The notes below the pieces were generated by a model. That model was not told the origin of the DNA. It worked only from the letters and a program-made list of their open reading frames with translations, and did not search any database. Source: a virus. Taken from it: DNA of 25,748 nt. Positions 160-25,748 of this stretch are shown here, in pieces (position 1 is the stretch's first letter; every line of letters begins with the position of its first letter). The DNA lies in the IMG/VR virus record IMGVR_UViG_3300047481_000260, positions 1 to 25,748 of that record; one strand, given 5' to 3'. Position numbers and translations under genes: made by a program.

Positions 160-168
160 GGAGTATCA

Positions 169-450: not shown

Positions 451-454
451 TTAA

Positions 455-2026: not shown

Positions 2027-2050
2027 ACAAAAAACAAAGGAGTATAAAAA

Positions 2051-2776
2051 ATGAATGAAGGTCAAGTAGTCATTACTAGTCCCGAAAGTGGTGCTGTTGC
2101 ACCCGAACCCACTAACCCTCAATCGGTTGTCCCCTCTGATAATACTACTGAGCGGCCAGCTTGGTTGCCTCAAAAATTTCAAAATACAGAAGAGTTAGCT
2201 AGGGCTTATTCCGAACTTGAAAGTAAGTTAGGTAATCGGGGTACACCCGAAGAACAGCTTCAAGAAAGCCTACCTAACGAACAACTTCCCCCAGATTTTT
2301 CAAAATTTGGGTCTGAATACCTCCAGAATGGAAGGTTAAGCGATCAGAGTTATGATGAACTTGCTTCTAGGGGTATTCCTCGTGAAGTGGTGGACGCTTA
2401 CATCTCTGGTCAACAGGCCGTTCAAGAGCGTGAAGTCAATACAGTTATGACTGATATTGGCGGTAAAGAGAATTTTGACGCTCTTTCTAAGTGGGCGGCA
2501 AGTAACCTCAGTCAAGATGAATTGGACGCTTATAACGCTATGGTTATGGGCGGCAATCTACAGCAAGCTCGTATGGCCGTTAAAGGGCTGTATGCTCAGT
2601 ATCTATCTGGTAGCTCTGAGCCTAGCTTGCTAGGTGGCAGTACTGGACGATATTCTGGTGATGGCTTCCGCTCTACGGCAGAAGTTATTCAAGCTATGAA
2701 AGACCCTCGTTACCAGAATGACGAAGCTTACCGAAAAGACGTTCAAAACCGCTTGTCGGTTTCTGAAATCATCTAA
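2051..2776 (+). CDS. Capsid assembly scaffolding protein, T7 gp9-like
   Basis: A 241-aa acidic, largely helical protein. Scaffolding proteins guide procapsid assembly and leave before DNA fills the head. The N-terminal segment is Pro/Thr/Ser-rich and disordered-looking. It is followed by the family signature PAWLPQKFQNTEELARAYSE at about residues 36-55. The rest is Gln/Glu-rich helix. The start has a strong SD (AAAGGAG at 2037-2043). It sits between portal and capsid genes as in T7. Positions 2119-2146, in the N-terminal coding part, are nearly identical to a non-coding stretch at 24825-24852. Confidence 0.95.
   Translation: MNEGQVVITSPESGAVAPEPTNPQSVVPSDNTTERPAWLPQKFQNTEELARAYSELESKLGNRGTPEEQLQESLPNEQLPPDFSKFGSEYLQNGRLSDQSYDELASRGIPREVVDAYISGQQAVQEREVNTVMTDIGGKENFDALSKWAASNLSQDELDAYNAMVMGGNLQQARMAVKGLYAQYLSGSSEPSLLGGSTGRYSGDGFRSTAEVIQAMKDPRYQNDEAYRKDVQNRLSVSEII
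2119..2146. repeat. 28-nt dispersed repeat, copy 1 (inside scaffold gene)
   Basis: Matches 24825-24852 at 27 of 28 positions in the same orientation, including an exact 22-nt block at 2125-2146 that begins GGTTGTCCCCTCTGATAATA. Here it encodes a stretch of the variable N-terminus of the scaffold protein. No third full copy was found by eye. Confidence 0.9.
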
Positions 2777-2790
2777 AGGAGGATAAAACT

Positions 2791-2958
2791 ATGACCTGGA
2801 TTACTGAAAACTTTGCTAACATTATGGCAATCATTGGTGCGGTGATTGTGGTTGCTCGGCTTGTTGTAAAGCTGACTCCTAGCCCAGCCGATGACAGCGT
2901 TCTTGAGAAAATTGTTAACGTTCTCAAGGCTGTTGGCCTTCACATTAACGACAAATAA
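2791..2958 (+). CDS. Small single-span membrane protein, holin-like
   Basis: A 55-aa protein starting MTWITENFANIMAIIGAV, with one hydrophobic segment at about residues 9-28 and a charged amphipathic tail (SVLEKIVNVLKAVGLHI). The start has a strong SD (AAAGGAGG at 2775-2782), and the stop overlaps the next ATG (TAATG at 2956-2960). Proteins with this MTW...AIIGAV...KLTP pattern recur in tailed phages, often beside spanin-like genes, and are usually unnamed or called holin-like. A pinholin or holin role is inferred from size, single span and the two following genes. Not in the T7 holin position. Confidence 0.7.
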   Translation: MTWITENFANIMAIIGAVIVVARLVVKLTPSPADDSVLEKIVNVLKAVGLHINDK

Positions 2959-3161
2959 TGTTTACGTGGCTAATTGAGTTAATCATAGCCATCTTAAAGT
3001 TCTTTGTAGTAGAAAATGTGCGGGAACAAGGCAAACCTACCAAAGCTGAAGATGCCGCTCCTTTGCCTCCTTACTTGCGTAGCCGTTTTATTGACAGGAT
3101 GCGCCAGTACGATAGAGAGCAAAAAAGTGGTGTTTCTCGACCCTCAGACATCAATCATTAG
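2958..3161 (+). CDS. Small inner-membrane-anchored protein, possible i-spanin
   Basis: A 67-aa protein with an N-terminal hydrophobic anchor (WLIELIIAILKFFVV, about residues 4-18), then a hydrophilic domain with KPTKAEDAAP and a basic helix (LRSRFIDRMRQYDREQK). The start overlaps the previous stop, indicating coupling. A lipoprotein gene overlaps it in the +1 frame from 3016, the same relative frame as lambda Rz1 in Rz. This architecture fits a short inner-membrane spanin subunit, but the periplasmic part is much shorter than in Rz, so the role is inferred. Both overlapping frames have protein-like features, which argues against either being a shadow. Confidence 0.6.
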   Translation: MFTWLIELIIAILKFFVVENVREQGKPTKAEDAAPLPPYLRSRFIDRMRQYDREQKSGVSRPSDINH

Positions 3162-3339
3162 GATTGGTCCGAATGTGAGGGGTAAGGTATACTTTTGGAA
3201 CGGAAAGGAGTGGGAATTATCTCATTCTGATGTCAATATACCAGAAGGATGGTATAGCGGGAACGTTCCAGACGAGGTTATGCCTCAACCAAAAAAAGAT
3301 TTGTCAGAAAAAACTCAAAACCCATCAACTCAGCGTTGA
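3016..3339 (+). CDS. Outer-membrane-type lipoprotein overlapping the previous gene, possible o-spanin
   Basis: A 107-aa protein with a textbook lipoprotein signal: basic n-region (K5, K10, K12), hydrophobic core, and lipobox LLTG-C29. Ala follows the cysteine, so the Lol rule predicts outer-membrane sorting. The mature part contains a recognisable phage pattern, RIGPNVRGKVYFWNGKEW followed by LPEGWY-like IPEGWYSG, then a Pro/Lys-rich tail. It overlaps the upstream gene by 146 nt in the +1 frame, as in Rz/Rz1-type gene pairs. ATG 3052 is an alternative start but would lose the positive n-region, so 3016 is preferred. No good SD is visible; coupling is likely. Confidence 0.65.
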   Translation: MCGNKANLPKLKMPLLCLLTCVAVLLTGCASTIESKKVVFLDPQTSIIRIGPNVRGKVYFWNGKEWELSHSDVNIPEGWYSGNVPDEVMPQPKKDLSEKTQNPSTQR

Positions 3340-3422
3340 CGGACTTACACAGACCCATCTGCGGGTGGACAATCTCGACTAAGGCGTACAAAGCGGTGAA
3401 AGGTTAGAGTTAACGCTACAAA

Positions 3423-3440
3423 CTTGCTAGCAATAGCAAG
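3423..3440 (+). promoter_or_regulatory. Perfect stem-loop with GCAA tetraloop in the capsid gene leader
   Basis: CTTGCTA pairs perfectly with TAGCAAG around a GCAA loop, a stable GNRA-type tetraloop. It lies about 45 nt before the major capsid ATG in a 147-nt gap that holds no gene. No T-run follows (the next bases are A/C-rich), so it is not a terminator. An mRNA 5' stabiliser or processing hairpin for the abundant capsid transcript is a reasonable guess. Confidence 0.6.
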
Positions 3441-3486
3441 AAACCAAAAAACAACCTAACAAAACAACAAAGAAAGGATTACTATT

Positions 3487-4467
3487 ATGGCTAATGGTAA
3501 TGCTACTCCTAACCGCCTTGGGCAGATCAATGCTACTGGCGATGCTTTTGCGTTGTTTCTTAAGACGTTTGCTGGTGAAGTGTTGACCACCTTTGAGACC
3601 CAGACGGTTTTCAAGGCTCTTCACACCATCCGTACGATTAAGAACGGCAAATCGGCACAGTTTCCTGTGACGGGCATCGCTTCTGCGGCGTATCACACCC
3701 CTGGCGAATCTATTGCTGACGCTGGCAACAGCTATCTCAGCACGATCAAACACGGCGAGCGGGTCATCAACATTGACAAGATGCTCCTCTCCTCGGCGTT
3801 TATCGCTAACCTCGATGAAGCTCAGAACCACTATGACGTTCGCTCGATCTATACGACCGAGATCGGACGTGCGCTGGCTCGTGAGTTTGATAAGACGATT
3901 GCACGAGTCATCGTTAAGGCGGCTCGTACGGCGGCTTATCTCGGACTTAACAACGCTGGTACTAAGCTGGCGAAAGGTGCTAGCGGCCTCGATACTGGTG
4001 CGGAAATTGCTTCCGCTATCTACGAAGCCGCAGAGGAACTTGATAAGAAGAACGTTCCAGACGATTCACGCTATTGCGTCCTTCGTCCTACGGAATACTA
4101 CAAGCTCGTTCGTGAGCTTGCAGAGCCTTCCAAGCCCTCGCCTGTCGGTAGCTACGTGGACGGAAGCGTTGCTCGTGTGGCGAACGTTACGATTGTGAAA
4201 TCGAACAACGTTCCCGCCGACAACTTCAGTTCTACCGCTAACCAGGCATCGAACGTGACGAACAACGATTACTCCGTTGATTTGACGGATACCGTTGGTC
4301 TCGTGTTCCACCCCGCCTCGGTGGGTACGGTGAAGCTCCTCGACCTTGCGGTTGAGAGCGAGTACCAGATCGAACGGCAGGGTACTTTGATGGTTGCCAA
4401 GTATGCTATGGGTCACGGAGTTCTCCGTCCCGAGTGTGCTGTTGAGCTATCGAAGGCGGCTAGCTAA
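3487..4467 (+). CDS. Major capsid protein, T7 gp10A-like
   Basis: A 326-aa protein, near T7 gp10A in length (345 aa). It forms the icosahedral shell. The family block GKSAQFPVTGIASAAYHTPG lies at about residues 55-74. It ends with a gp10-like domain containing LVFHPASVGTVKLLDLAVES and a QGTLMVAKYAMGHGVLRPE tail. SD AAAGGA precedes the ATG by about 8 nt. Its third codon positions are visibly richer in C and G than the AT-leaning neighbours, as expected for the most highly translated gene. It lies between scaffold and tail tube genes and is followed by a terminator. No -1 extension equivalent to T7 gp10B is supported. Confidence 0.97.
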   Translation: MANGNATPNRLGQINATGDAFALFLKTFAGEVLTTFETQTVFKALHTIRTIKNGKSAQFPVTGIASAAYHTPGESIADAGNSYLSTIKHGERVINIDKMLLSSAFIANLDEAQNHYDVRSIYTTEIGRALAREFDKTIARVIVKAARTAAYLGLNNAGTKLAKGASGLDTGAEIASAIYEAAEELDKKNVPDDSRYCVLRPTEYYKLVRELAEPSKPSPVGSYVDGSVARVANVTIVKSNNVPADNFSSTANQASNVTNNDYSVDLTDTVGLVFHPASVGTVKLLDLAVESEYQIERQGTLMVAKYAMGHGVLRPECAVELSKAAS

Positions 4468-4475
4468 TAGCTATT

Positions 4476-4493
4476 TAGGGGGTGTCACTCCTA
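4476..4493 (+). other. Short hairpin just after the capsid stop
   Basis: TAGGGG pairs with CTCCTA (one G.U) around a six-base loop, about 8 nt after the capsid TAA. No T-run follows. It may protect the 3' end of the capsid mRNA together with the terminator 65 nt further on. Weak on its own. Confidence 0.35.
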
Positions 4494-4558
4494 TGATTGG
4501 ATTTGTTGATCGTGTGGTTTTATTCATTTATCCCACGGCTCCTCTCAACAAGTCCCAT

Positions 4559-4581
4559 AGGGGTGGCATCCCCTTTTTTTT
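4559..4581 (+). terminator. Rho-independent terminator after the major capsid gene
   Basis: Stem AGGGG / CCCCT with a TGGCAT loop is followed immediately by eight T residues (4574-4581). It sits in the 151-nt gap between the capsid and tail tubular A genes, the same place as the T7 late terminator T-phi. In T7 that terminator lowers expression of the tail and core genes relative to capsid; the same use is inferred here. Confidence 0.88.
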
Positions 4582-4618
4582 GTTGTAATGTCCGTTTAAA
4601 GGCGTAAACAATACCTAT

Positions 4619-5200
4619 ATGGCTACATATTCTCATCGAATTTCTAAACTAGAAGCAGTTAACACGATGCTCACCTTGGTAGGTGATTCTCCTGTAAATA
4701 CACTTAGCGCAACGACTTCAAACGCTCAGATTGCTGAATTGATTTTGGACGAAGTTACCAAAGAATTTCAGTACCAAGGGTGGCATTTTAACACAGAAAA
4801 CAACGTTACGCTTCCAAGAGACAACACAAATAAGATTGAAATTCCAGATACCGCTTTGTCTGTGGACGTGGACGATAACGTGTACCCTAGTTTAGATGTC
4901 ATTATTCGTGGAAACTACTTGTACGATAAAGCCAACCATACGTATGAGTTTTCTTCTGATTTAAAAGCGGAAGTTATTTACTTTTTAACTTGGGATAATT
5001 TGCCAGAAATTGCAAAGCGTTTTGTTGTTCTTCGGGCTGGTCGAATCTTTTCTCAGAGGTTGATCGGGTCGGCTGAACAAAACTCAACTAACACTATTGA
5101 TGAGAACCAAGCTTTAAGGGAGCTTGTGTATTGGGATGAGCAGATGTCTGATTTAACGATTTGGGACAACTATTCAGTATCAAGAGTGTTGGACAGATAA
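4619..5200 (+). CDS. Tail tubular protein A (gatekeeper/adaptor), T7 gp11-like
   Basis: A 193-aa protein, the same size as T7 gp11 (196 aa). It forms the ring joining the portal to the nozzle and helps close the tail channel. The N-terminal signature SKLEAVNTMLTLVGDSPVNT (residues 9-28) and the C-terminal helix ending in SDLTIWDNYSVSRVLDR are typical of the family. No canonical SD lies close to the ATG; an AAAGG at 4598-4602 is about 16 nt upstream. It is the first gene after the capsid terminator and ends 12 nt before the nozzle gene. Confidence 0.95.
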   Translation: MATYSHRISKLEAVNTMLTLVGDSPVNTLSATTSNAQIAELILDEVTKEFQYQGWHFNTENNVTLPRDNTNKIEIPDTALSVDVDDNVYPSLDVIIRGNYLYDKANHTYEFSSDLKAEVIYFLTWDNLPEIAKRFVVLRAGRIFSQRLIGSAEQNSTNTIDENQALRELVYWDEQMSDLTIWDNYSVSRVLDR

Positions 5201-5212
5201 GGAGATTTTGTT

Positions 5213-8143
5213 GTGGCTCTGATTAACACGACCATACCTAATTTAATTAGTGGAGTAAGCCAGCAGTCTGATTCTCTTAGGTACGGATCACAGGCAAAAG
5301 AACAAGTTAACGCTTACTCTTCAGTTGTTGAAGGGTTAATTAAGCGTCCTCCTACAATTCATATTGCTAATTTACAAACCCCCGCTTCTGGTGGAGTATT
5401 TGTTCATATTATTAATCGTGATGTGACTGAACGTTACATTATGACTATTGAAAAAACAGGAAGAATTAAAATTTACGAAACAAGTGGAGTTGAAAGACAG
5501 GTTTATAACGCAAATACTACTGCTTATTCTGCTGGAAACTTAGGTGGCGGCTTTACTGCCGCAGAAGTTCCGTCTTTAGGAGCAGGTGTTGGGTATAACA
5601 CCAGTTTTCCTTATTATTTACAATGGCCTACTGCAAGTGCTGATCCTAACAATTATCTTCAAGCCATAACGATTGCTGACTTTACGTTTTTGTTAAATAA
5701 ATACACAAGCGTTACTATGAACGCCGCTCCTGCAAACGACAGGCCGTACGAAAACATAGTTTATGTGGCTCAAGGTGCTTATAATTCTAAATATATTGTT
5801 ACTCTTACTCAAGGAGCGACTACTCAAACTGTAACCTGTACTACAGGTGACGGAATTGTAACAAGCGGCTTTACTGTAAACGGAAAAGAAGCCGCTCAAA
5901 CTAACACGATTGCCGCCGCTCTTGCTGGATTAATTAATGCCGCTGGCTTAAGTGGTGTAACCAGAACAGTAATTGGTTCAAGCATTCGGTTTAATTCTAA
6001 CAGCCCATTTACGATTACTGTAGAAGATTCTGGTAGCGGAACGTTGTTAAAACAAGTTTTAGGATATCGAAATGGGTCTGTTCAGAATTTTCAAGATTTG
6101 CCGATTAATTGTGTTAACAATTTTATTGCTCAAGTTAACTCTGATCCCGAACAAGCTGGTGATGATTATTATGTTAAATTTTTGGCAGATAACGGCGTTA
6201 GTGGAAGCGGAAAATGGGAAGAAGCAGTAAGACCAGCTATTCCTACTTCATTTAATGCTGGAACTATGCCTCACGCTCTAATTAGAAAATTTGATTCTAA
6301 CGGAGTTCCGTTTTTTGTTTTTAAAAGGCTTATTTGGGACGAAAGACTAGCGGGAGATACAGCTACTAACCCAGACCCGACTTTTGTAGGAAACCCAATA
6401 AGAGGAATTACGTTTTTTAAAAACAGGCTTGGATTTTTAAGTGACGAAAATGTTATTTTTTCTGAAGCAAGCGAGTTTTTTAGCTTTTTTAGAACTACTG
6501 TAGCCCAACTTTTAGATTCGGATGTAATTGACGTTGCCACAACTTCTTCAAAAGTAAGTTATTTAAACTGGGCTATTCCTTTTAATGATAAATTGTTGCT
6601 TTTTTCGGATCAGACTCAATTTAAAGTAAGTAGCGGAGATATTTTTAGCGCAAAAACTGTTTCTATTTCTCAGACTACTGAATACGAAAACTCAATGTTT
6701 TCTTCACCAGTTACGTCTGGTAAAAATGTGTATTTTGCATTTCCAAGAGGCGAATACAGCGGTATTCAAGAATATTATGTTTCAACTGAAAACTTAAATT
6801 ATGTTGGAGTTGACATAACTTCAGCCGTTTCAAAATACATTGTTGGAAATGTAAAAAAGATTGCAACTTCTCAAAATGAACAGGTTTTGGCTGTAGTAAG
6901 CGATGGGTTTAAAAGTGGCGTTTACATTTACAAATATCTTTATCAAGGCGATCAAAAACTTCAATCGGCTTGGTTTAAATATGATTTTGGTGCTGATGTT
7001 GAAGTGTTAAATGCTGAGTTTTTAGATACTGATTTGTATTTAATTCTTCGTAGAAATAACTCTAATTTAGCCATTGAAACTGTTTATTTTGAGGCAGGGT
7101 TAAAAGACAAATACGCTCCGTTTATAACTTGTTTGGATAGAAGAATCTTTTCTAAAGACCTTCCAAATAATTATATGACTTACAATCCAGACACTAACTT
7201 AACTTCAATTCGGCTTCCTTATTTTGTGGGAAATCAAAAGAAATTTAGTGTAGCGACAGCGTATCTTGATCCAGACTCTTTGGATTTAGATTTTACTAAT
7301 ACAAATACAGCATCGGATTATAAGGAACTTCCTGGTGGCTATATTTTAAAACCAGCAGACAATCAAGCTCAAAAAGTTCAATGCGGTATTTGGAATAATT
7401 TTACAACGTATACCCCAGGAACTAAGGTTTTTTATAATGATGAAATTTGGCAAGCTAAGTCTTTGCCAGTTGGGACGGCTCCAAATACGATCAACTTAGC
7501 CAGAACACCAGGAATTACATATCAAATTACAGTAAACAACGTTTTACAAAGCTTTTCTTTTTGGGCTAATAACGTATCTGGAACAGGACCAGCCAGATAT
7601 TTTTCTACTGTTTTTTATAATCCTCCGTCTGGATCAATTAATATTTACGAGTTATTTACAACCTTATTGGATGATTATAAACCAGTATACACCGATCCTG
7701 TAACAAGTATTACTTACGTCCGCATTCAAGGAAATCACGTTGGTCGCCCTGTTTGGATTGGGTATCCCTATGATATGATGTACACAGTTTCTAGACCGAT
7801 GATTCGTGAAAACATTGGTCAAGGAAAGCAGTCTGTGGCTTCTGGAATCTATATGATGCGTACTGGTACTGTAATGTACGACAATACTAGATATTTTAGA
7901 GTTGAAGTTACTCCTCAATCCAGAGCCACCTACAAATACGTGTTTAACGGAACTGCTTTAAATACAGTAGATACCATTATGCCTAATAACCCGCTAAAAG
8001 ACGGAACCTTTAAGTTTCCCATTATGGCTAAAAATGACGAAGTTGAGATTAACCTACTTAACGATTCTCCCTTTCCTTCGGCTCTTATTAGTATGGATTT
8101 TGAAGGGTATTACCAAAACAGAGCAAATAGGTACAATGGTTAA
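5213..8143 (+). CDS. Tail tubular protein B (nozzle), T7 gp12-like, with a carbohydrate-binding-like insert
   Basis: A 976-aa protein that forms the tail nozzle. The N-terminus INTTIPNLISGVSQQSDSLR (about residues 4-23) is the family hallmark. The repeated beta-rich domains, including FFKNRLGFLSDENVIFSEAS, are also typical. GTG is the start, with AAGGAGA 8 nt upstream. It is longer than T7 gp12 (794 aa). Much of the excess lies around residues 724-835, where C724-G-I-W-N...YTPGTKVFYND-x-x-WQAK resembles the chitin- or sugar-binding ChtBD3/CBM5-12 pattern. Typical gp12 sequence (VGRPVWIGYPYDMMYTVSRP) resumes afterwards. Third positions are strongly A/T-rich. The last 8 nt overlap the next gene. 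Confidence 0.95.
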   Translation: MALINTTIPNLISGVSQQSDSLRYGSQAKEQVNAYSSVVEGLIKRPPTIHIANLQTPASGGVFVHIINRDVTERYIMTIEKTGRIKIYETSGVERQVYNANTTAYSAGNLGGGFTAAEVPSLGAGVGYNTSFPYYLQWPTASADPNNYLQAITIADFTFLLNKYTSVTMNAAPANDRPYENIVYVAQGAYNSKYIVTLTQGATTQTVTCTTGDGIVTSGFTVNGKEAAQTNTIAAALAGLINAAGLSGVTRTVIGSSIRFNSNSPFTITVEDSGSGTLLKQVLGYRNGSVQNFQDLPINCVNNFIAQVNSDPEQAGDDYYVKFLADNGVSGSGKWEEAVRPAIPTSFNAGTMPHALIRKFDSNGVPFFVFKRLIWDERLAGDTATNPDPTFVGNPIRGITFFKNRLGFLSDENVIFSEASEFFSFFRTTVAQLLDSDVIDVATTSSKVSYLNWAIPFNDKLLLFSDQTQFKVSSGDIFSAKTVSISQTTEYENSMFSSPVTSGKNVYFAFPRGEYSGIQEYYVSTENLNYVGVDITSAVSKYIVGNVKKIATSQNEQVLAVVSDGFKSGVYIYKYLYQGDQKLQSAWFKYDFGADVEVLNAEFLDTDLYLILRRNNSNLAIETVYFEAGLKDKYAPFITCLDRRIFSKDLPNNYMTYNPDTNLTSIRLPYFVGNQKKFSVATAYLDPDSLDLDFTNTNTASDYKELPGGYILKPADNQAQKVQCGIWNNFTTYTPGTKVFYNDEIWQAKSLPVGTAPNTINLARTPGITYQITVNNVLQSFSFWANNVSGTGPARYFSTVFYNPPSGSINIYELFTTLLDDYKPVYTDPVTSITYVRIQGNHVGRPVWIGYPYDMMYTVSRPMIRENIGQGKQSVASGIYMMRTGTVMYDNTRYFRVEVTPQSRATYKYVFNGTALNTVDTIMPNNPLKDGTFKFPIMAKNDEVEINLLNDSPFPSALISMDFEGYYQNRANRYNG

Positions 8144-8609
8144 AATACGCATAGCTGAAGAAAAAGACGCTTCAAACCTTGCTCCACGTCTTCGGGAAGA
8201 AGACAAGCTTGAAATTAGGTCTATTTTTACTGAATCTGAAAAAAGCACAGAAGAAGTCCTTTTGGATAGCATTAGGTCGTCTATTCCTTGCCTTTCTGTT
8301 GAAGAAAATGGGAATGTTATTATGGTCTTTGGGGCATCCGATTATGGGGACAAAGATTGCGGTTTGGTCTGGCTTTTAGGGTCAGATAGAATAAAAGAGC
8401 TATGGATACCCTTTTTACGTCAATCCCACTACTGGTCTGATGCGTTGTTCAATATCAGTAAGAAACGCTTGCTTTTTAACAGAGTTTGCTCCAAAAATGA
8501 CTTGCATATTAGATGGATTAAATGGCTGGGGTTTACCTTTGTTCAGAAATTGGACAACTACGGCCATTTAGGGCTATCTTTCTATGAGTTTTGTAAACTG
8601 AAAGGGTAA
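8136..8609 (+). CDS. Internal virion protein A, T7 gp13-like
   Basis: A 157-aa protein (T7 gp13 is 138 aa). The start is ATG 8136, which overlaps the nozzle stop; the frame stays open further upstream, but the protein-family N-terminus (VKIRIAEEKDASNLAPRLRE) begins here. Conserved family features include LVWLLGSD and the end block LLFNRVCSKNDLHIRWIKWL, which gives it the look of a diverged acetyltransferase fold. In T7, gp13 is needed to build the internal core but is scarce in mature virions. No catalytic claim is made. Confidence 0.88.
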   Translation: MVKIRIAEEKDASNLAPRLREEDKLEIRSIFTESEKSTEEVLLDSIRSSIPCLSVEENGNVIMVFGASDYGDKDCGLVWLLGSDRIKELWIPFLRQSHYWSDALFNISKKRLLFNRVCSKNDLHIRWIKWLGFTFVQKLDNYGHLGLSFYEFCKLKG

Positions 8610-15351: not shown

Positions 15352-17967
15352 ATGCCTTTATCGTTTAACGAAAGCACAGCTACAGGAGTAACTACCCCAG
15401 GTTCTTCTCTTGGGACGGATTTTCCCATTTATTTTCCGTATTTGGCTAAAGCTCATATTAACGTTGATTTTAATAAAGTTCTTCAATCGCAAAACAATTT
15501 TGTGGTTTATGATGCCAACGAAGCGGTTGCTCCCGCTGGGGCGTTTGGGGCTAGTACAGCTTTTGTCCGCTTTACTACAGGATTTCCTACTGCTGGGGTT
15601 ACTATTCGTGTCCGCCGTATTACTGAAAAAGGCTTTCCTTTAGTTGATTTTCAAGACGGATCGGCTCTTACTGCCGATGACCAAGATTTAGCCTTTTTAC
15701 AGAATTTTTATCTTAATCAAGAGTCTGTTGAACAAGCTGACAATGCTCTTGGAAAAGTTGGGTTAGTTTTTTACGCAAACGGAGTTCGCATTACTGAAAT
15801 AGGTCAGCCAACCCAACCTAATGACGCTACAACTAAGCTGTATGTTGACACTCAAGACGCTCTTAAAGTCACCAAAGCTGGTGATTCTATGTCTGGTGCT
15901 TTGGCTATGGGTAACAACAAGATTACTGGTCTCGGTGCGCCTACTTCAAACAACGATGCCGCAACTAAAACTTATGTGGATACCGCCGATGCGTTAAAAG
16001 TCACCAAAGCTGGGGATACAATGTCGGGTGCGCTTGCGATGGGTAGTAATAAGATTACTAACCTTGGTACTCCGACTGTTTCAGATGATGCCACTACAAA
16101 AGCTTATGTTGATGCGGCTGACGCAACGCTTACCAGCGGTAAGGTTTCTAAAAGTGGAGATACAATGGCTGGGGCGTTGGCGATGGGTAATAATAAAATT
16201 ACTGGCCTTGGTACTCCAACCTCTAATAATGACGCTTCAACAAAAGCGTATGCAGATACTAAGCTTTCGCTATCTGGCGGTACTTTAACTGGGGAAGTTG
16301 ATTTTGGCGGGTTTAGGGTTACTGACGTTTCTGACCCAAGTGCATTTAACGATGCGGCCACAAAACAATACGTAGATTCTTCTATTCAACAGTACATAAC
16401 TACTGGCGGGGTTTCTGGAAACCCGACTCGTTGGCAGTTTACAGGGGATGGGTCTACTTTAGTTTATAATATTACAGGTGCTACAGTAATCTACCCAAAC
16501 AGCTATTTAGTTTCGATTGACGGCGTAGTTCAAGACCCAACTTACTCTTACAACGTTTCAGTTGGGGGGGCTTCTCAAACGCTCACATTTGACCAAGCAC
16601 CCGCAAACGAAACACGTATTGTTATTATTGCTCTTGGATATGCTCTTCCAACTATTAGTTCTATTCCAAACAATACTGTAAGTACTGGTGCTATTGTTGA
16701 TGACGCTGTAACTGCTGATAAACTTAAGGATAGCGTTTCTACTGATTTAGACAGAGCAGTTACTACTAATCATATTAGGGATTTGGCTATTACTACAGCT
16801 AAATTGGCTTCTAACGCTGTTACAGATGCTAAATTGAGTAGTGACGCAAGTGTAGATGCTAATAGAGCGGTTAATACGAATCATATCAAAGATTTAGCTG
16901 TTACTACGGCTAAAATAGCTGGCAACGCTGTTACAGATGCAAAGCTTAGTAGCGATGCAAGTGTAGATGCTAATAGAGCGGTTAATACCAATCATATTAA
17001 AGATTTAGCAGTTTCTACAGCTAAATTGGCCGCTAACGCTGTTACAGACACTAAACTTAGTAGTGACGCAAGTGTTGACGCAAACAGAGCAGTTAACACT
17101 AATCATATTAAGGATTTGGCTGTGACTAATGCTAAATTAGCAGGGTCTATTTCAGCCAATAAACTTACTAATAGCGGAGTTACTTCTGGGACGTACGGAA
17201 GCACAACTCAATCCCCTCAACTTACTGTAAATGCTCAAGGTTTAGTAACTTCTGTTTCTAATCAGAATATTGCTTTCCCTGTTCAAAAAGTTGTAAATGT
17301 TTATAGTAAAATTAAAAGAGATACATTTACTAATAATACTGGGTGGAGATATCAAAGTATTTCAGGCTTGCAAATTGGAACTCTTAATACCGCTCCTTAT
17401 ACTGGTGGAAATATAACTCTAGCTTCTGCTTCAAATCGGGTGCTTATTCAAGGAACAATTCATACAGGAGACAGTAATAATTACCTAACTTCATTACAAC
17501 TTATGAGGTGGCAAACAGGAACAGCACCTATAGCGGCTACGGCTATGGTTGTGGGTAATTATTATATGATAGTTATTACTGGAACAACAACTTTTACTTC
17601 GTTTGGGGCGCGAACTAACGCTGTTGGTGTTTACTTTAGAGCAAGTGCGGCTGGAACTGGAACTGGAACAGTTTTACCTGTAATAATGGTTGGTATGGGG
17701 GACCAAAACGGAACACGTACAAGGACTACTGCTGGTTGGCAAAGCAACGTAAATGCAAACACAATGCTTCCTGTTGTGCTAAACTTAATGGACGCTCCTG
17801 GTTTCACAAATGTATCTTATGATTTACTTCTTGGAGGTTATGGAAGTGGGACTACGTATGTAAACAGGAGTCAAACTTGGTCAAACCAACTTGGTAGCGG
17901 TTCGACATCCACCGCTTATGATCTTTGCCCAAGCTCTTCTGTAATTTTTACAGAACTTACACCTTAA
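15352..17967 (+). CDS. Tail fibre protein with T7 gp17-like N-terminus and repeat arrays
   Basis: An 871-aa tail fibre. Residues about 1-135 (FPIYFPYLAKAHINVDFN, then LTADDQDLAFLQNFYLNQES) form the virion-attachment domain shared with T7 gp17. Next come three to four degenerate copies of a segment KVTKAGDxMSGALAMGxNKITxLG (array 15865-16263). A domain with YLVSIDGVVQDP follows, then four 37-aa repeats (16720-17145). A beta-rich C-terminal head ends in SVIFTELTP and is probably receptor-binding. Around residues 732-777 a small module (VGNYYMIVITG...GTGTGTV) interrupts this head. SD AAGGAGA at 15339-15345. Very likely sets host range. Confidence 0.93.
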   Translation: MPLSFNESTATGVTTPGSSLGTDFPIYFPYLAKAHINVDFNKVLQSQNNFVVYDANEAVAPAGAFGASTAFVRFTTGFPTAGVTIRVRRITEKGFPLVDFQDGSALTADDQDLAFLQNFYLNQESVEQADNALGKVGLVFYANGVRITEIGQPTQPNDATTKLYVDTQDALKVTKAGDSMSGALAMGNNKITGLGAPTSNNDAATKTYVDTADALKVTKAGDTMSGALAMGSNKITNLGTPTVSDDATTKAYVDAADATLTSGKVSKSGDTMAGALAMGNNKITGLGTPTSNNDASTKAYADTKLSLSGGTLTGEVDFGGFRVTDVSDPSAFNDAATKQYVDSSIQQYITTGGVSGNPTRWQFTGDGSTLVYNITGATVIYPNSYLVSIDGVVQDPTYSYNVSVGGASQTLTFDQAPANETRIVIIALGYALPTISSIPNNTVSTGAIVDDAVTADKLKDSVSTDLDRAVTTNHIRDLAITTAKLASNAVTDAKLSSDASVDANRAVNTNHIKDLAVTTAKIAGNAVTDAKLSSDASVDANRAVNTNHIKDLAVSTAKLAANAVTDTKLSSDASVDANRAVNTNHIKDLAVTNAKLAGSISANKLTNSGVTSGTYGSTTQSPQLTVNAQGLVTSVSNQNIAFPVQKVVNVYSKIKRDTFTNNTGWRYQSISGLQIGTLNTAPYTGGNITLASASNRVLIQGTIHTGDSNNYLTSLQLMRWQTGTAPIAATAMVVGNYYMIVITGTTTFTSFGARTNAVGVYFRASAAGTGTGTVLPVIMVGMGDQNGTRTRTTAGWQSNVNANTMLPVVLNLMDAPGFTNVSYDLLLGGYGSGTTYVNRSQTWSNQLGSGSTSTAYDLCPSSSVIFTELTP
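15865..16263 (+). repeat. Tail fibre repeat array A (44-48 aa units)
   Basis: Units start at 15865, 15997 and 16141 (spacing 132 and 144 nt). Each encodes K(V)(T/S)K(A/S)GDxMxGALAMGxNKITxLGxPT...DAxTKxY. A fourth degenerate copy (LSLSGGTLTGEVDFGGFRVTD) follows to about 16380. Units of this type are common in phage fibre shafts. Synonymous differences between copies show they are not recent duplicates. Confidence 0.85.
16720..17145 (+). repeat. Tail fibre repeat array B (four 37-aa units)
   Basis: Period is 111 nt. The unit reads AKLSSDASVDANRAVNTN followed by HIKDLAVTTAKIAGNAVTD; the first copy is diverged (STDLDRAVTTNHIRDLAI). The last three copies are very similar at nucleotide level, so this array is younger or homogenised compared with array A and could change copy number by recombination. 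Confidence 0.9.
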
Positions 17968-19795: not shown

Positions 19796-20404
19796 ATGGC
19801 AAATTACGGAAGAACATCTAACAGGCAAAATCGTACGCCTACAATTCAAACGCAAGTTACTTCAAAGCCAGGACAGGCGGCTATTGGAGACAGCGTTAGG
19901 GTTACTGAAAAACAAATGGGAAAACTGACTAACGGAGGAATTGGAAACGCAACGCATTGGGCAGGTCTTCCGATTACTGGGTTAGAACAACCAAGAACGT
20001 ATTTAACAGGTAGACCAGGTCAGCGTGGTCGCCAATGGGTTACAGAATACCCAAGAAACCCGATTCCCGAATACGGAAGCTATATTCAAGGTAGGCAAAT
20101 TGGAAGAGACAGCTACGGAACAATGATTACTCGTGAACTTGTCCGTGGAAAACCAGGTGTTGCCGCTGAAATAATTTTTAAACGAAAAAGTTTAGGAATA
20201 GATAAAGCCGAAACTGAAGGTAAGCAAGATTTAATTGACGAAGCCAACAAGCCTGTGCAGACAACTGCTGAAGACATTCTTAAACGCCGTTTAGCCCTAA
20301 TCCGTATGAAAGGCAGGGCTTCAATGCCTTCATCTTCGGCTTCTAAAGACGAGCCTACTGTGAATGTTAGCTCTGGTGGGGCTATTGGTCTTAACTTTGC
20401 TTAA
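19796..20404 (+). CDS. Hypothetical protein, first of a tandem pair sharing a C-terminal module
   Basis: A 202-aa basic protein of unknown function. Residues 1-140 are Gly/Arg/Thr-rich and do not resemble the next gene product. The last 46 residues (TAEDILKRRLALI, then DEPTVNVSSGGAIGLNFA) are 31/46 identical to the end of that product. The ending GLNFA preceded by a basic GR/Ser stretch resembles the ends of small phage tail-assembly or virion-associated proteins, but no function can be assigned. SD AAAGGA about 9 nt before the ATG. Lies between the terminase subunit genes. Confidence 0.8.
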   Translation: MANYGRTSNRQNRTPTIQTQVTSKPGQAAIGDSVRVTEKQMGKLTNGGIGNATHWAGLPITGLEQPRTYLTGRPGQRGRQWVTEYPRNPIPEYGSYIQGRQIGRDSYGTMITRELVRGKPGVAAEIIFKRKSLGIDKAETEGKQDLIDEANKPVQTTAEDILKRRLALIRMKGRASMPSSSASKDEPTVNVSSGGAIGLNFA

Positions 20405-20416
20405 AGGATTACACAA

Positions 20417-21025
20417 ATGAGTGAATCACGATCAAGCACAGGAAGAAAAAGTTATTCAACTAATTATTTAGCCGCTAGTCCAGGCCGTACTATAAAAACA
20501 GATAATTGGAAAAGAAGTGTTTATGAAAAAAAGTTTACTGTTACTACCCCGCATCAAGACGATCCTGGTGAAGAACAATGGGTTTATGCTAATACAGTTT
20601 CTATTCCAGCTTGGAGAGCCTCCCAATCAAAATGGGAAGCTGATTTAAAAGCAAAGCACGGAAAAAATGTAACAATTCAGCATCTTGGAAGCGGAAGTTA
20701 TGGAAACGGAGTTGGATATTCAAACACATACAAAGTTATTTTAGATGAAAATAGTCCAACCTATTCAAGCAAAGCTCCTACTTTAAAATCTTTTGACAAA
20801 GTTAATAGAGAAGGGTTGCTTATTACCAAAGACAAAGAAGGAAAATCAGTTTTTGTTAACGAAACAAACAAAGCAGAACAAGTAACAGCAGAAGACGTTC
20901 TTAAAAAACGTTTAAACCTATTAAGCCGTAAAGGGCGTATTACAATGCCTTCGGGGAGCGGTACTAGTGACGAGCCTACAATTAATATCAGTTCTGGTGG
21001 GGCTGTCGGACTTAATTTTGCGTAA
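20417..21025 (+). CDS. Hypothetical protein, second of a tandem pair sharing a C-terminal module
   Basis: A 202-aa protein, exactly as long as the preceding one. Its N-terminal 150 residues differ: Lys/Ser-rich, with RASQSKWEADLKAKHGKNVT and YGNGVGYSNTYKVILDEN. The C-terminus (TAEDVLKKRLNLLSRKGRIT, then DEPTINISSGGAVGLNFA) is shared. SD AAAGGA precedes the ATG. A conserved tail with unrelated bodies suggests the tail is a docking or targeting tag and that the pair arose by duplication followed by replacement of the N-terminal part. Function unknown. Confidence 0.8.
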   Translation: MSESRSSTGRKSYSTNYLAASPGRTIKTDNWKRSVYEKKFTVTTPHQDDPGEEQWVYANTVSIPAWRASQSKWEADLKAKHGKNVTIQHLGSGSYGNGVGYSNTYKVILDENSPTYSSKAPTLKSFDKVNREGLLITKDKEGKSVFVNETNKAEQVTAEDVLKKRLNLLSRKGRITMPSGSGTSDEPTINISSGGAVGLNFA

Positions 21026-21668: not shown

Positions 21669-23345
21669 ATGGATATAGACCCCCGCCTAAAGGATTTTCG
21701 TAATTTTTTGTATATTGTCTGGAAGCATCTTCATTTACCAGACCCAACCCCTATTCAATACGATATTGCAAACAAAATTCAAAACGGACCAAAACGGCAA
21801 GTTGTAGAGGCGTTTCGAGGGGTGGGTAAAAGCTGGATTACTTCTGCCTTTGTTGTTCACCAGTTATTGCTAGACCCTACCCTTAACTTTCTTGTTGTGT
21901 CTGCCAGCAAAAACCGAGCAGACGATTTTTCAACATTTACCCTTCGGCTTATTCAAGAAATACCCATTCTTCAGCATCTTATCCCAAAAGAGACACAGCG
22001 TAGCTCCAAGATTGCTTTTGACGTTGGACCCGCCCCTGCCGCTCACGCCCCCAGCGTAAAGAGTGTCGGTATTACAGGACAGATTACTGGAAGCCGTGCA
22101 GACGTGGTTATTGCCGATGACGTGGAAAGCTTAAACAACTCCCTAACTCAAGGTATGCGGGACAGGTTGGGTGAAACCATCAAGGAGTTTGAGGCCGTTT
22201 TAAAGCCAAGCGGACGCATTCTTTTCTTAGGCACTCCGCAGACCGAGATGAGCATTTACAACCAGCTTCCAGAGCGAGGCTACGAAGTTCAAATATGGCC
22301 TTCGAGGTATCCAACAACTGCTCAGATGTCTGGGTATGGAAATCGGCTTGCTCCGACAATTTCAAAAAGTCTTGAGGATGATCCTTCATTGGCTGGTAAA
22401 CCTACTGATCCGTTGCGTTTCAATGAGGACGATCTGCTTGAACGTGAGCTTTCCTACGGCAAAACTGGGTTTGCCTTGCAGTTTATGTTGGATACTAGGT
22501 TATCTGACATAGATCGTTACCCATTAAAGTTATCCGATTTAATTGTAATGGCAATCAACCCCGAACTTGGACCAAGCAAAGTCGTATGGGCAACCAGCCC
22601 CGAACTGGCTTGGAACGACCTGCCTTGCGTTGGTTTGGCTGGGGACAGGTACTACAGACCGATGCAGACCATTGGTGAATGGACTCCCTACACAGGATCG
22701 GTGATGGCTATAGACCCATCTGGCCGAGGCAAGGATGAGACAGGGTATGCAGTTGTCAAGATGCTAAACGGCCAGTTGTTTTTGACGGCTTCTGGTGGTT
22801 TTCGGGAAGGCTACAAAACCGAGAATCTTGAGATTTTGGCAAACGTGGCAAAACAACACAAAGTTAACTACATCATTGTGGAAGCCAACTTTGGAGACGG
22901 AATGTTTAGCCAGTTGCTTAAGCCTGTATTGGGAAAAATCTACCCTTGCACGATTGAAGAGGTACGCCACAGCCAACAAAAGGAAAAGCGCATTATAGAC
23001 ACTTTAGAGCCTGTATTAAATCAACACAGGTTAATTATAGATGCCAAGGTCATAGATGCCGATTACAAGTCAACCGCAAGCCTAGCCAGCGAAATTAAAG
23101 CCCAGTATCAGCTATTTTATCAGCTTTCCAGACTCACCAGGGACAGAGGCTCCCTTAGTCGGGATGACCGCCTTGATGCCCTTTCTATGGCTGTGGGATA
23201 CTGGGTGGAGCAAATGGCTAGAGACGTGGATATGGCTGTAAAAGAAGCCTATGCCGAAAAACTGGAAAAGGAGCTAGATACTTTTATGGATTCCATTTTT
23301 AAGTTGCAAGGGGGCAAAAAGCAGACAACTTGGATGAAAGTATGA
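21669..23345 (+). CDS. terL: Large terminase subunit, T7 gp19-like
   Basis: A 558-aa packaging motor (T7 gp19 is 586 aa). ATPase: Walker A R50-GVGKS-55 in AFRGVGKSW, Walker B VVIADD at about 146-151, and a GTPQ coupling motif at about 188. Nuclease: AIDPSGRGKDETG with D349, VEANFGDG with E405, and RLDALSMAVGYW with D503 as likely metal ligands. The chain looks complete and active. No strong SD is visible before the ATG. The 127-nt leader is structured. The stop overlaps the hydrolase gene (ATGA). Confidence 0.97.
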   Translation: MDIDPRLKDFRNFLYIVWKHLHLPDPTPIQYDIANKIQNGPKRQVVEAFRGVGKSWITSAFVVHQLLLDPTLNFLVVSASKNRADDFSTFTLRLIQEIPILQHLIPKETQRSSKIAFDVGPAPAAHAPSVKSVGITGQITGSRADVVIADDVESLNNSLTQGMRDRLGETIKEFEAVLKPSGRILFLGTPQTEMSIYNQLPERGYEVQIWPSRYPTTAQMSGYGNRLAPTISKSLEDDPSLAGKPTDPLRFNEDDLLERELSYGKTGFALQFMLDTRLSDIDRYPLKLSDLIVMAINPELGPSKVVWATSPELAWNDLPCVGLAGDRYYRPMQTIGEWTPYTGSVMAIDPSGRGKDETGYAVVKMLNGQLFLTASGGFREGYKTENLEILANVAKQHKVNYIIVEANFGDGMFSQLLKPVLGKIYPCTIEEVRHSQQKEKRIIDTLEPVLNQHRLIIDAKVIDADYKSTASLASEIKAQYQLFYQLSRLTRDRGSLSRDDRLDALSMAVGYWVEQMARDVDMAVKEAYAEKLEKELDTFMDSIFKLQGGKKQTTWMKV

Positions 23346-24289
23346 GAACACAGGTAGGGGACATCGTACCAAACAGCCATCGGTCAGTTATGAACAATTT
23401 TGAGCAATACAGCACCAAACGCACCCCACGTAAGCGGGTAGAGCCTATGCCGCTACGCCAGCCTGTACAGCAACCTACCCAACCCCAGCAACTCACCCAG
23501 CCAGAACCCGATGCCAGCCTCTCTATTGAGGATCAAGAGCGTCAACTGGTGTTTAAGACTATGCTAGGGTCTGAAATTAAGAATGTGCTTGCCGAGGCTT
23601 TAAAAGGGGCAAATTTAGCGCAGGGAACAGTTCAAAACAGCGTTTCAACGGCTGGTAGTGTCCCCACAGCGACCCAAAGCGCATATACAGGCACAGACCC
23701 CCTTTATTTGCGAAATGCTCGCCTTCTGGCTGGAACCAACCAATCCTTAAGCCAGGAACAGCAATTTGCTATGCGTAAGTTCGTCCAGAACTACCAGACC
23801 AATAAAGCTCGCTATGAGGCCGTAGCCCAAAAAACCGATATGCCCCCAGAGCTTATTGCCGCCCTGCATTGGCGGGAAAGCACAGGCAACTTTGGCACAT
23901 ACCTTCACCAAGGCGACCCGCTAGGCCAACCCGCACGGCGTATCCCCAACAATATCCCTGTATTCAACGATTGGGAAAGTGCCGCCATCCACGCCATAAA
24001 CCTTAAAAAAGGCATTCAGCAACGTTTTGGTATTACCAAGGCCACAGGCCAAAGCGACCCTGCCGCCCTGTCCACTTACGCCGAGTACTACAACGGCAAA
24101 GGCTACTTTAACAAAAGCCGTCCCTCTCCCTACGTCTTTAGCGGTACTTCCAGCTACCAATCGGGCAAGTACGTGGCAGACGGCAAGTACGATCCAAATG
24201 CTGTTGACAGGCAACTTGGGGTTTATAGTATGCTAAGTGATCTGTGGAGCCTCAATAGCCCCAAACCAGCCGTTGCTGGCTCCCAGTAA
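23342..24289 (+). CDS. Lysozyme-like peptidoglycan hydrolase (probable endolysin or virion lysin)
   Basis: A 315-aa protein using ATG 23342 (ATGA overlap); ATG 23330 would add four residues. The first ~120 residues are Pro/Gln-rich (VQQPTQPQQLTQPEPD) and disordered-looking. The catalytic-type domain has PPELIAALHWRESTGNFGTY (about 168-187), then LHQGDPLG and DWESAAIHAINLKKG, the pattern of a phage lysozyme-like hydrolase family with catalytic Glu in H-W-R-E-S (E179 here). No signal peptide or transmembrane start, so export would need a holin or virion delivery. Codons end in C more often than in the structural genes. Confidence 0.8.
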   Translation: MRTQVGDIVPNSHRSVMNNFEQYSTKRTPRKRVEPMPLRQPVQQPTQPQQLTQPEPDASLSIEDQERQLVFKTMLGSEIKNVLAEALKGANLAQGTVQNSVSTAGSVPTATQSAYTGTDPLYLRNARLLAGTNQSLSQEQQFAMRKFVQNYQTNKARYEAVAQKTDMPPELIAALHWRESTGNFGTYLHQGDPLGQPARRIPNNIPVFNDWESAAIHAINLKKGIQQRFGITKATGQSDPAALSTYAEYYNGKGYFNKSRPSPYVFSGTSSYQSGKYVADGKYDPNAVDRQLGVYSMLSDLWSLNSPKPAVAGSQ

Positions 24290-24301
24290 AAGGAGCTAAA
24301 A

Positions 24302-24505
24302 ATGAAAAAGTATATTATATTGGCGGTACTGATGCTTACCCCCACCCTCAACGCACAGGAGACGATGCGAGCCAACTGGGTGGGGAACCTACAGGACGAA
24401 TCGGGTACAATTCGGTATTTTAAAGGTAGCATCCGAGGCGTGGGCTGGATTAGCGCAGACAATGTTAGCGGTATGGAAAAGTACACGCCTAACCCGCTTC
24501 GGTAA
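24302..24505 (+). CDS. Small exported protein of unknown function
   Basis: A 67-aa precursor with a clean Sec signal peptide (MKKYIILAVLMLTPTLNA, probable cleavage after A18) and a ~49-aa mature part containing WVGNLQDESGTIRYFKGSIR and GVGWISADN. No lipobox and no cysteine. SD AAAGGAG about 5 nt before the ATG. Its place right after the hydrolase suggests a periplasmic role in lysis or in blocking superinfection, but there is no family evidence for either. Confidence 0.7.
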   Translation: MKKYIILAVLMLTPTLNAQETMRANWVGNLQDESGTIRYFKGSIRGVGWISADNVSGMEKYTPNPLR

Positions 24506-24514
24506 GAAAGCCTG

Positions 24515-24790
24515 TTGAAATTTTCAGATAACTTTCAAGGTCGCTCTCGCGAACTGAAAGTCTACAACGGCAGGGTCAAGATATACGTGGACGGCATCGT
24601 TATGTTCACGTTTAACCAAATAGATTTTAAAGGCTGGTACGCCTATAAGGACGATCACTCCCTTTACGGAATAGACATTTACCTGGTCGAATCCAGCGGC
24701 GGGTCGGGCGGGTCAACCATTATGCAAATTTCCTTTAAGACTAAGGAGAATTGGCTAGGGGTTCTGGAGCTTTTAGACAGGTACTTATAA
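24515..24790 (+). CDS. 91-aa hypothetical protein with TTG start
   Basis: The only sensible start is TTG 24515, with AAGAAAG upstream as a weak SD; the next in-frame ATG (24602) would remove 29 residues. Sequence LKVYNGRVKIYVDGIVMFTF, then FKGWYAYKDDHSLYGIDIYL, alternates strand-forming residues, with a Gly/Ser hairpin (SSGGSGGS) and a C-terminal helix (NWLGVLELLDRYL). This is a compact PH- or split-barrel-like layout I have seen in unnamed phage proteins. No function assigned. Last gene before the non-coding right-end region. Confidence 0.65.
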   Translation: MKFSDNFQGRSRELKVYNGRVKIYVDGIVMFTFNQIDFKGWYAYKDDHSLYGIDIYLVESSGGSGGSTIMQISFKTKENWLGVLELLDRYL

Positions 24791-24797
24791 CCCCCAT

Positions 24798-24840
24798 TCC
24801 CCTTCGGGGAGACCGACAATCCAATCAATAGGTTGTCCCC
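24798..24840 (+). promoter_or_regulatory. Two mutually exclusive hairpins after the last late gene
   Basis: Hairpin 1: TCCCC (24798-24802) pairs with GGGGA (24806-24810); the CUUCGG element makes it stable. Hairpin 2: GACAA-(T)-CC (24815-24822) pairs with GGTTGTC (24831-24837) around an 8-base loop. Its base can extend by pairing the GGG of hairpin 1 with CCC at 24838-24840, which would break hairpin 1. No T-run follows either. The layout is that of an attenuator or switch, unproven. Confidence 0.45.
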
Positions 24841-24852
24841 TCTGATAATACT
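24825..24852. repeat. 28-nt dispersed repeat, copy 2 (non-coding right end)
   Basis: 27/28 identical to 2119-2146 (only position 24830 differs, A for C), with the exact block at 24831-24852. Same strand orientation. Its left part forms the 3' arm of hairpin 2 above. Confidence 0.9.
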
Positions 24853-24861
24853 TAAGGTATG

Positions 24862-24895
24862 CTTTGGGTATCCCAAGGTTGTTAATCCTTTTTAT
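24862..24895 (+). terminator. Probable late-transcript terminator
   Basis: CTTTGGG pairs with CCCAAGG (one G.U) around a TAT loop at 24862-24878, followed by the T-rich stretch TTGTTAATCCTTTTTATT. The tail is not a pure T-run, so efficiency is uncertain. Suitable position to end the late operon after the 91-aa gene. Confidence 0.55.
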
Positions 24896-24980
24896 TATCC
24901 TTTGTACTCTTTTGTGTCTTTTTACACCTAATTTAGTTTGTGAGGGAGGTCTAAATTTAGAGAGTCCAAGGAGGGAGGTT

Positions 24981-25045
24981 TTACCTTTAGCTTACCTTTA
25001 GATAGCTTTGTAAAAGGCTATTAAAGGATGTAAAGGAGTAAAGAA
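24981..25045. repeat. Array of CCTTTA / TAAAGG short repeats
   Basis: TTACCTTTAG occurs at 24981-24990 and again at 24992-25001 (11-nt spacing). TAAAGG or TAAAG then follows at 25022, 25031 and 25039. T7 carries arrays of a similar heptamer (CCTAAAG) beside its terminal repeats, so the motif type and place are suggestive. Confidence 0.5.
24995..25027 (+). promoter_or_regulatory. Strong 14-bp hairpin with GUAA tetraloop
   Basis: CCTTTA-(G)-ATAGCTTT pairs with AAGGCTATTAAAGG around GTAA (25010-25013): 14 pairs, one bulged G, one G.U. A long helix in an untranslated leader resembles phage RNase III processing sites. No T-run follows, so it is not a terminator. Confidence 0.65.
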
Positions 25046-25072
25046 ATAAGATAAACCTTAATTAAACTTTAA

Positions 25073-25089
25073 GTTATCCTTTCGATAAC
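25073..25089 (+). other. Small perfect hairpin
   Basis: GTTATC pairs with GATAAC around a CTTTC loop. A short stem in A/T-rich DNA, in the leader of the 59-aa gene. It could equally be a small operator-like inverted repeat. Confidence 0.35.
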
Positions 25090-25147
25090 CGACTAAATAG
25101 CCTCTAGCGGCTTGTAGGGGGTGTGGAAAGATAAGGCTTAATGAATG

Positions 25148-25165
25148 CTTTTTGTAACCAAAAGG
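25148..25165 (+). promoter_or_regulatory. Hairpin covering the Shine-Dalgarno of the 59-aa gene
   Basis: CTTTTTG (25148-25154) pairs with CAAAAGG (25159-25165) around TAAC: seven pairs, one G.U. The 3' arm contains most of the AAAAGGAG ribosome-binding site for ATG 25179. A weak, A/U-rich stem of this kind could tune or gate translation. Confidence 0.5.
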
Positions 25166-25178
25166 AGTAACTCATTAA

Positions 25179-25358
25179 ATGAAAAACAATGAAAGTATTG
25201 GGACAAAGGTTGCCGAATCAAATCGCCAGCTTATGCAAAGGGAAAAACTTAAGAAGCTTTTGGGTTTGTCCAAGCTTTATCCCGAAAAGGGCTGGGAAGA
25301 GGAAATTAGGAAACAACCAGTTTATACTACAGGTGTGTCTTTTAGCGGTGGCCAATAG
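25179..25358 (+). CDS. 59-aa hypothetical protein with a strong ribosome-binding site
   Basis: ATG 25179 follows AAAAGGAG (25160-25167) at good spacing; stop TAG 25356-25358. The sequence opens MKNNESIGTKVAESNRQLMQ, then REKLKKLLGLSKLYPEKGW, EEEIRKQPVYTTGVSFSGGQ. Mostly charged helix with a short extended tail and no membrane segment or signal. It stands alone after a ~390-nt leader full of structure, so it begins a new transcription unit. No family recognised. A small early host-interaction protein at the start of the next genome copy is one possibility, but that is inference. Confidence 0.7.
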   Translation: MKNNESIGTKVAESNRQLMQREKLKKLLGLSKLYPEKGWEEEIRKQPVYTTGVSFSGGQ

Positions 25359-25748
25359 TATCAATGTTTTCAATCTTTACACGTCTTAAACAACGTGTTA
25401 AAATTTCCCAAATATTTTGGCAAAAAAATCTGAGCGAGTGTACATCGTAGAATTTTCCTGGTTCCCCCCATACCCCCTTATTTGCTCCTAACTTTAACGA
25501 TAAAGCGGGGGTCGCCCCATTCACTATCTGACCTAACTCGTTGACATTCAACAACTAGAAACGGACTCCAAATCCCTTTTTCTCCGTTGCCTAAAACTTT
25601 ATTGGTTTATGTCTTTTACCCTCTGCAAAAAGACCAGACCCAGAGCAACTAGAAAAGCAGGGGCAACCCTCAAAACACGACCCAGACCGCCCACAACTAT
25701 CATCCGACTATCACCAAACCCAAACCCCCACGCAATCGAGCGGAAAAG
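25359..25748. other. 390-nt stretch without a convincing gene
   Basis: Holds several modest inverted repeats: ACACGT...ACGTGT (25379-25398), CCAAA-TAT-TTTGG (25408-25420), CTTTA-ACGA-TAAAG (25492-25505) and GGGG-GTCG-CCCC (25507-25518). A TTGACA box at 25541 has no matching -10 at normal spacing. From about 25620 the plus strand is rich in A and C and poor in G and T, unlike the coding regions. Frames open to the window edge on both strands are short and lack ribosome-binding sites. Confidence 0.5.

Follow-up and report, generated by a model that had tools for sequence, protein, structure and literature searches.

Why does one 28-nt sequence occur twice in a phage genome, once inside a structural gene and once far away at the right end? 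The element was observed in a window of 25,748 nt (the whole stretch of DNA analysed, IMG/VR record IMGVR_UViG_3300047481_000260), which is part of the genome of an uncultured T7-like phage, a virus of bacteria. Portal, scaffold, capsid and terminase genes of the T7-like type were identified in the window with Pfam (Table 1). The original prediction, made from the letters alone, had listed a promoter for a phage-encoded RNA polymerase, a packaging or replication signal, and a recombination scar of the scaffold gene as possible roles.

The repeat pair and its genomic setting

The predicted 28-nt near-perfect repeat in one orientation was confirmed, with 27 of 28 positions identical and the two copies 22.7 kb apart. 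The exact shared 22-mer occupied 2125-2146 and 24831-24852, and the sole mismatch was C2124 in the scaffold copy against A24830 at the right end. When at most 3 mismatches were allowed on both strands, the 22-mer was found at just these two places in the whole window, and no match occurred in any of 100 dinucleotide-shuffled windows. The chance of about 2 in 100,000 that had been quoted for an exact 22-mer is consistent with simple arithmetic.

Two relatives were used for comparison. The near-identical IMG/VR contig 3300042197_000592 (G1, 41,619 nt) held both copies, and in the stretches compared it showed 100% identity to the window over 1-8298 and 1 mismatch over 23271-25748. G1 runs 3.5 kb beyond the window end, and the 189-nt overlap between its two ends (1 mismatch) suggests a complete, permuted assembly; the right end here means the end of the window, which need not be the true DNA end. 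The left part of G1 encoded a tyrosine integrase as well as a single-subunit RNA polymerase of the T7 type, 803 residues long (Pfam RNA_pol, E 1.6e-96). The diverged relative 3300032225_000838 (G6, 40,681 nt) had a mean DNA identity of 72% to G1 over 30,266 nt aligned, and the two RNA polymerases were 73% identical (590/804). In a blind search for repeats on the same strand, at least 17 nt long and at least 500 nt apart, only this pair and the contig-end overlap were returned in G1, and likewise in G6; at a limit of 16 nt, two further pairs appeared in G6 and none in G1.

Some other features of the gene map were also observed. A 2OG-Fe(II) oxygenase-like gene (L098 7791-8345; Pfam PF13640, E 2.6e-9) was located among the replication genes. 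Past the window's right end, L001 2687-4516 held an amidoligase-like gene (PHROG 2443, E 9.4e-21) and after it a gene that matched PHROGs weakly, one match being named glutamine-fructose-6-phosphate aminotransferase. In-frame tandem repeats with a 111-nt period and about 132-144-nt spacing were present at 15865-17144 of the window (871-residue ORF, 15352-17967), and two adjacent 202-residue ORFs at 19796-21025 had a common 63-nt end that was 79% identical, the first of them giving no PHROGs match.

Table 1. Positions in the window of the element and of the features discussed with it.
Feature	Position	Strand	Evidence or remark
Scaffold (capsid assembly) gene, T7 gp9-like	2051-2776	+	Pfam PF05396, E 7.5e-22
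Scaffold-gene copy of the element	2119-2146	+	Repeat; proposed phi10-like promoter, putative +1 at G2138
Major capsid gene, T7 gp10-like	3487-4467	+	Pfam PF21703 (Gp10A-like), E 9.4e-72
Terminator-like element (GC hairpin with a T-run) after the capsid gene, before the next ORF	4556-4587	+	32 nt unchanged in G6
Terminase large subunit gene, T7 gp19-like	21669-23345	+	Pfam PF22530, E 8.7e-42
37-nt run identical in G6, containing the right-end copy	24814-24850	+	G1-G6 alignment
Weak hairpin, right-end copy only	24815-24837 (arms 24815-24822 and 24831-24837)	+	Sequence kept in L018
Right-end copy of the element	24825-24852	+	Repeat, kept in G6 and L018; proposed phiOR-like promoter, putative +1 at G24844

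Conservation of the two copies

G6 carries the element both in its scaffold gene and downstream of its terminase gene, each copy being 1 mismatch from the search pattern. In the scaffold ORF, the element was present in all six phage sequences compared (the window, L005, L002, L006, L007 and G6). Its conservation there went beyond the coding frame, as a freeze of synonymous sites: over the element's 10 codons, 112 of 120 same-residue codon pairs had the identical codon against 1582 of 2808 (56.3%) gene-wide, these pairs not being independent because some of the six sequences are closely related. When 237 ten-codon windows were ranked by conservation, the top eight all started at columns 22-31, which is the element. 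Variants were seen: L006 and L007 had A at -6 and C at -1 (numbered in the register proposed below), L005 had C at -8, and the scaffold copy of G6 had GATACT in place of GATAAT. The base that distinguishes the copies was kept, with A at -14 in the right copy of both phages and C in 6/6 scaffold copies.

The right-end copy lies about 1.5 kb after the terminase gene in G1, with other ORFs in between, in a mostly non-coding and diverged region where 262 of 409 alignment columns were identical between G1 and G6. A run as long as the 37 nt containing the copy was reached in none of 20,000 column shuffles (the longest was 30), and it shared fourth place by length among the 108 exact matches of at least 16 nt between G1 and G6. 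Whether relatives keep the right-end copy was a point on which the original prediction had turned, and the copy was present in diverged G6. Two descriptions of this region were borne out in part. The copy does overlap a hairpin arm, but the fold was no better than that of shuffled sequences (z -0.05, with 93 of 200 at least as good). The right end, which had been called non-coding, is mostly so, except for a 59-codon open frame after the repeat (25179-25358).

This ORF gave no PHROGs match; a ribosome-site-like AAAAGGAG was seen upstream of it, and a similar-looking ORF was noted by eye at the same place in G6. Conserved non-coding blocks of 21 nt (AGGAGGGAGGTTTTACCTTTA) and 13 nt (TGAGGGAGGTCTA) were present within 24940-25020 of the window, and a 25-nt block at 25415-25439, identical in G6, could be part of a DNA-end region. 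ORFs 24302-24505 and 24515-24790 are in one frame with a single TAA between them, and are possibly one gene with a stop.

Beyond these genomes, the exact 24-letter pattern was found in only 5 IMG/VR contigs, all of this group (7 stretches), and the right-end-specific pattern in IMG/VR was confined to G1 and G6. One GTDB match, from a Deltaproteobacteria bin, was rejected; it lay in a cyclase-like ORF without similarity to this phage, and about 4 matches were expected by chance. Two long pieces of the element were absent from the full text of the open-access literature searched.

Candidate roles of the element

Very probably, the two copies serve as promoters, phi10-like in the scaffold gene and phiOR-like at the right end, for the single-subunit (T7-type) RNA polymerase that the phage itself encodes. 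This option of the original prediction was supported by the encoded polymerase, by both copies being kept in G6 and by the codon-level freeze, and the element would most likely belong to a known class of signals while being new in sequence, with two sites of which the internal one falls within the scaffold frame. In both G1 and G6 the two near-identical sites were on the same strand and in the direction of the genes, one near the capsid gene and one after the terminase gene, comparable with the mapped phi7 and phi8 of LUZ100 and with the Syn5 sites. In the putative register, set by alignment of known promoters with the AAT and C(A/C)CC of the element, AATMGGTTGYCMCCTCY would occupy -17 to -1, and +1 would be a G in each copy. 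A T7-type promoter profile (-17 to +1) was also built from seven phages. It gave a weak score, with 2,579 of 83,202 G1 positions above the scaffold copy in the proposed register, and it also missed the Syn5 promoters. With this insensitive profile, the register was the local best in five of the six scaffold copies but in neither of the two right-end copies, and the best score for the G1 right-end copy fell on a minus-strand position 12 nt away. Because the known promoters of Syn5 are missed, the profile speaks neither for nor against the promoter reading.

Both promoters would point rightward and be read by the phage polymerase. From the copy in the 5' part of the scaffold gene, a strong late transcript would run over the capsid gene to a terminator after it, forming a phi10/Tphi-like unit, and would continue by read-through into the genes for tail, lysis and packaging. 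Three overlapping plus-strand matches at 4559-4575 were obtained in a terminator scan, and the fold of the 4556-4587 hairpin was just mildly stronger than shuffles (z -1.33). The right-end copy after the terminase gene would act like T7 phiOR and transcribe the right end, its transcript possibly crossing the concatemer joint into the left end of the next genome. Recognition by the polymerase, the start sites and the genes driven are all predicted from sequence.

In the polymerase, a 14-residue stretch aligned with the T7 specificity loop (VKSTLAGKVRYHKL) was identical in G1, L108, G6 and L110, while the aligned loop in full (22/30 between G1 and G6) did not exceed the complete enzyme (590/804) in conservation. 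Three changes in this stretch were found in L144. The sample that yielded L144 also yielded the promoter variants L006 and L007, although L144 may belong to another phage; the changes would fit a joint change of enzyme and promoter, though they are not proof of it.

Another DNA site, serving a replication origin, terminase recognition or concatemer processing, or recombination, and present a second time as the scaffold copy, is unlikely. The position of the right-end copy after the terminase gene would suit it, as T7-like phages carry end-processing signals there; so would the extension of the conserved run upstream into the hairpin arm at the right end only, and the tyrosine integrase of G1. 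However, a packaging signal does not fit two same-direction sites 22.7 kb apart, one of them in a structural gene, and the element does not form a clear palindrome. As for an integration site, G1 has its integrase gene some 12.6 kb upstream of the scaffold copy, and a tRNA scan of L098-L102 found none, which speaks against it. Promoter and end-region roles may overlap, because phiOR itself serves the end region in T7-like phages, and the element may have a second role in replication or end processing. An RNA-level element, either a structured RNA or an antisense RNA from the right end that pairs with the scaffold message, has a still smaller chance. The 21- and 13-nt conserved blocks of the right-end region agree with such a role, but the folds were no stronger than shuffles (z -0.05, -1.27 and -0.82), and no Rfam family matched in L098, L001 or L018. 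A minus-strand transcript of the right end would be complementary to the scaffold message at 27 of 28 bases. The plus-strand copies, however, are unable to base-pair with one another, and the sigma-70 search gave nothing on the minus strand at the element.

It is highly improbable that the pair is a selectively neutral scar of recombination or gene-fragment capture, even if one copy is coding and the other non-coding as such a scar might leave them. Both copies persist at 72% genome identity, each with its own distinguishing base, and the neutral sequence flanking the right copy has diverged; the scar of the scaffold gene proposed earlier is contradicted by the finding of both copies at the same two places in G6. 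Almost no weight is given to a host RNA polymerase promoter. The GATAAT of the element looks like a -10 box, but GATACT stands in the G6 scaffold copy, and the entire 21-28 nt are conserved rather than two boxes. No sigma-70-type site (-35 and -10 boxes with 16-18 nt spacing) was found at either copy, and one was found at 25376-25404.

For the favoured promoter pair, a wider scheme can be put forward tentatively, its chances being rated a little below even. The late programme of an integrase-bearing T7-like lineage would be run from just two promoters of an undescribed, non-TATA class. With one of them inside the scaffold frame, the phage-polymerase message would start downstream of the scaffold start codon, raising capsid over scaffold, and the DNA-replication genes would be served by the host polymerase or by transcription running through from the right-end promoter over concatemer joints. 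No copy was found near the polymerase or DNA-replication genes, unlike in T7 or LUZ100, which is a point against the promoter reading. If the promoter reading is true, the phage would offer a new candidate for an orthogonal pair of RNA polymerase and promoter, and its genome would be a second T7-like one with two promoters, next to Syn5. A promoter within the scaffold frame would then be a simple means to set the capsid-to-scaffold ratio, and a blind search for long-distance direct repeats could flag such promoters in uncultured phages even where a T7-type profile fails.

Comparison with known phage promoters

Besides G1 and G6, a promoter-like repeat 6-77 nt after the terminase gene was present in 6 of 14 genomes, namely Syn5, LUZ100, CRP-125, G15, Pasto and a Limnohabitans phage, and the repeats of the last four were judged to be promoters. 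It was absent in the other 8 of 14 (G9, G10, G11, G12, G13, G14, HTVC200P and CRP-361), among which the G9 contig stops 254 nt after the match, AT-rich repeats in G10 and G13 were not counted, and the repeats of CRP-361 lie elsewhere. These absences count against the promoter reading, as do the unexceptional conservation of the whole specificity loop and the distance of the right copy from the terminase gene, 1.5 kb in G1 compared with 6-77 nt in the six genomes.

The repeat of Roseobacter phage CRP-125 (TTAGGTTGCACCATAG) is like the element in having a copy 25 nt after the terminase gene, and AAT and GGTTG are common to both; it differs in having five copies, two of which flank the polymerase gene, and its GGTTG is one base off in the proposed register. 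The word "promoter" is absent from the main text of the CRP paper (PMC11092137). Repeated TTAGGTTGCACC motifs were observed beside the polymerase gene in CRP-125 and CRP-361, and in CRP-125 also after the terminase gene (L114 3391, 5928, 7552, 16904 and 36543; L135 4575, 7140 and 18157), and these are likely the polymerase promoters of the two phages.

Cyanophage Syn5 has only two promoters according to the passages cited (PMC3950665), and its promoter is given in the cited part of PMC6834552 as the first 15 letters of ATTGGGCACCCGTAAGCAAG. The blind search on Syn5 returned ATTGGGCACCCGTAAGCAAG twice, at 4929 within the polymerase gene and at 44797, which is 6 nt past the stop codon of terminase. 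The Syn5 promoters (ATTGGGCACCCGTAA) are like the element in being two sites only on the same strand, one intragenic and one right after the terminase gene. They are unlike it in sequence, and their internal site is in the RNA polymerase gene instead of the scaffold gene; the Syn5 polymerase has 25% identity to that of this phage.

Pseudomonas phage LUZ100 is, like this phage, an integrase-bearing T7-like phage. Eight phage-specific promoters are reported for it in the cited portion of PMC10134795, with a local phage promoter for the capsid gene and a strong terminator right downstream. Most of the mapped promoters were recovered by the blind search on LUZ100, including phi7 in the scaffold-capsid gap and phi8 just after the terminase gene, whose places at scaffold/capsid and after terminase correspond to those of the element. 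In that account LUZ100 differs by its eight promoters phi1-phi8, several of them around the polymerase and early genes, and by its motif AATTACCACACAG, and the polymerases are about 35-38% identical. Its layout, with a promoter before and a terminator after the capsid gene, is matched here by the terminator-like element.

T7 likewise has a promoter before and a terminator after the capsid gene. Going by the general knowledge of the T7 layout, phi10, Tphi and phiOR are at the same places relative to the capsid and terminase genes as the features described here. In contrast to this phage, T7 promoters are numerous and carry TATAGGG at the start, while in the element TCT or TCC would occupy -3 to -1 and ATA would follow +1.
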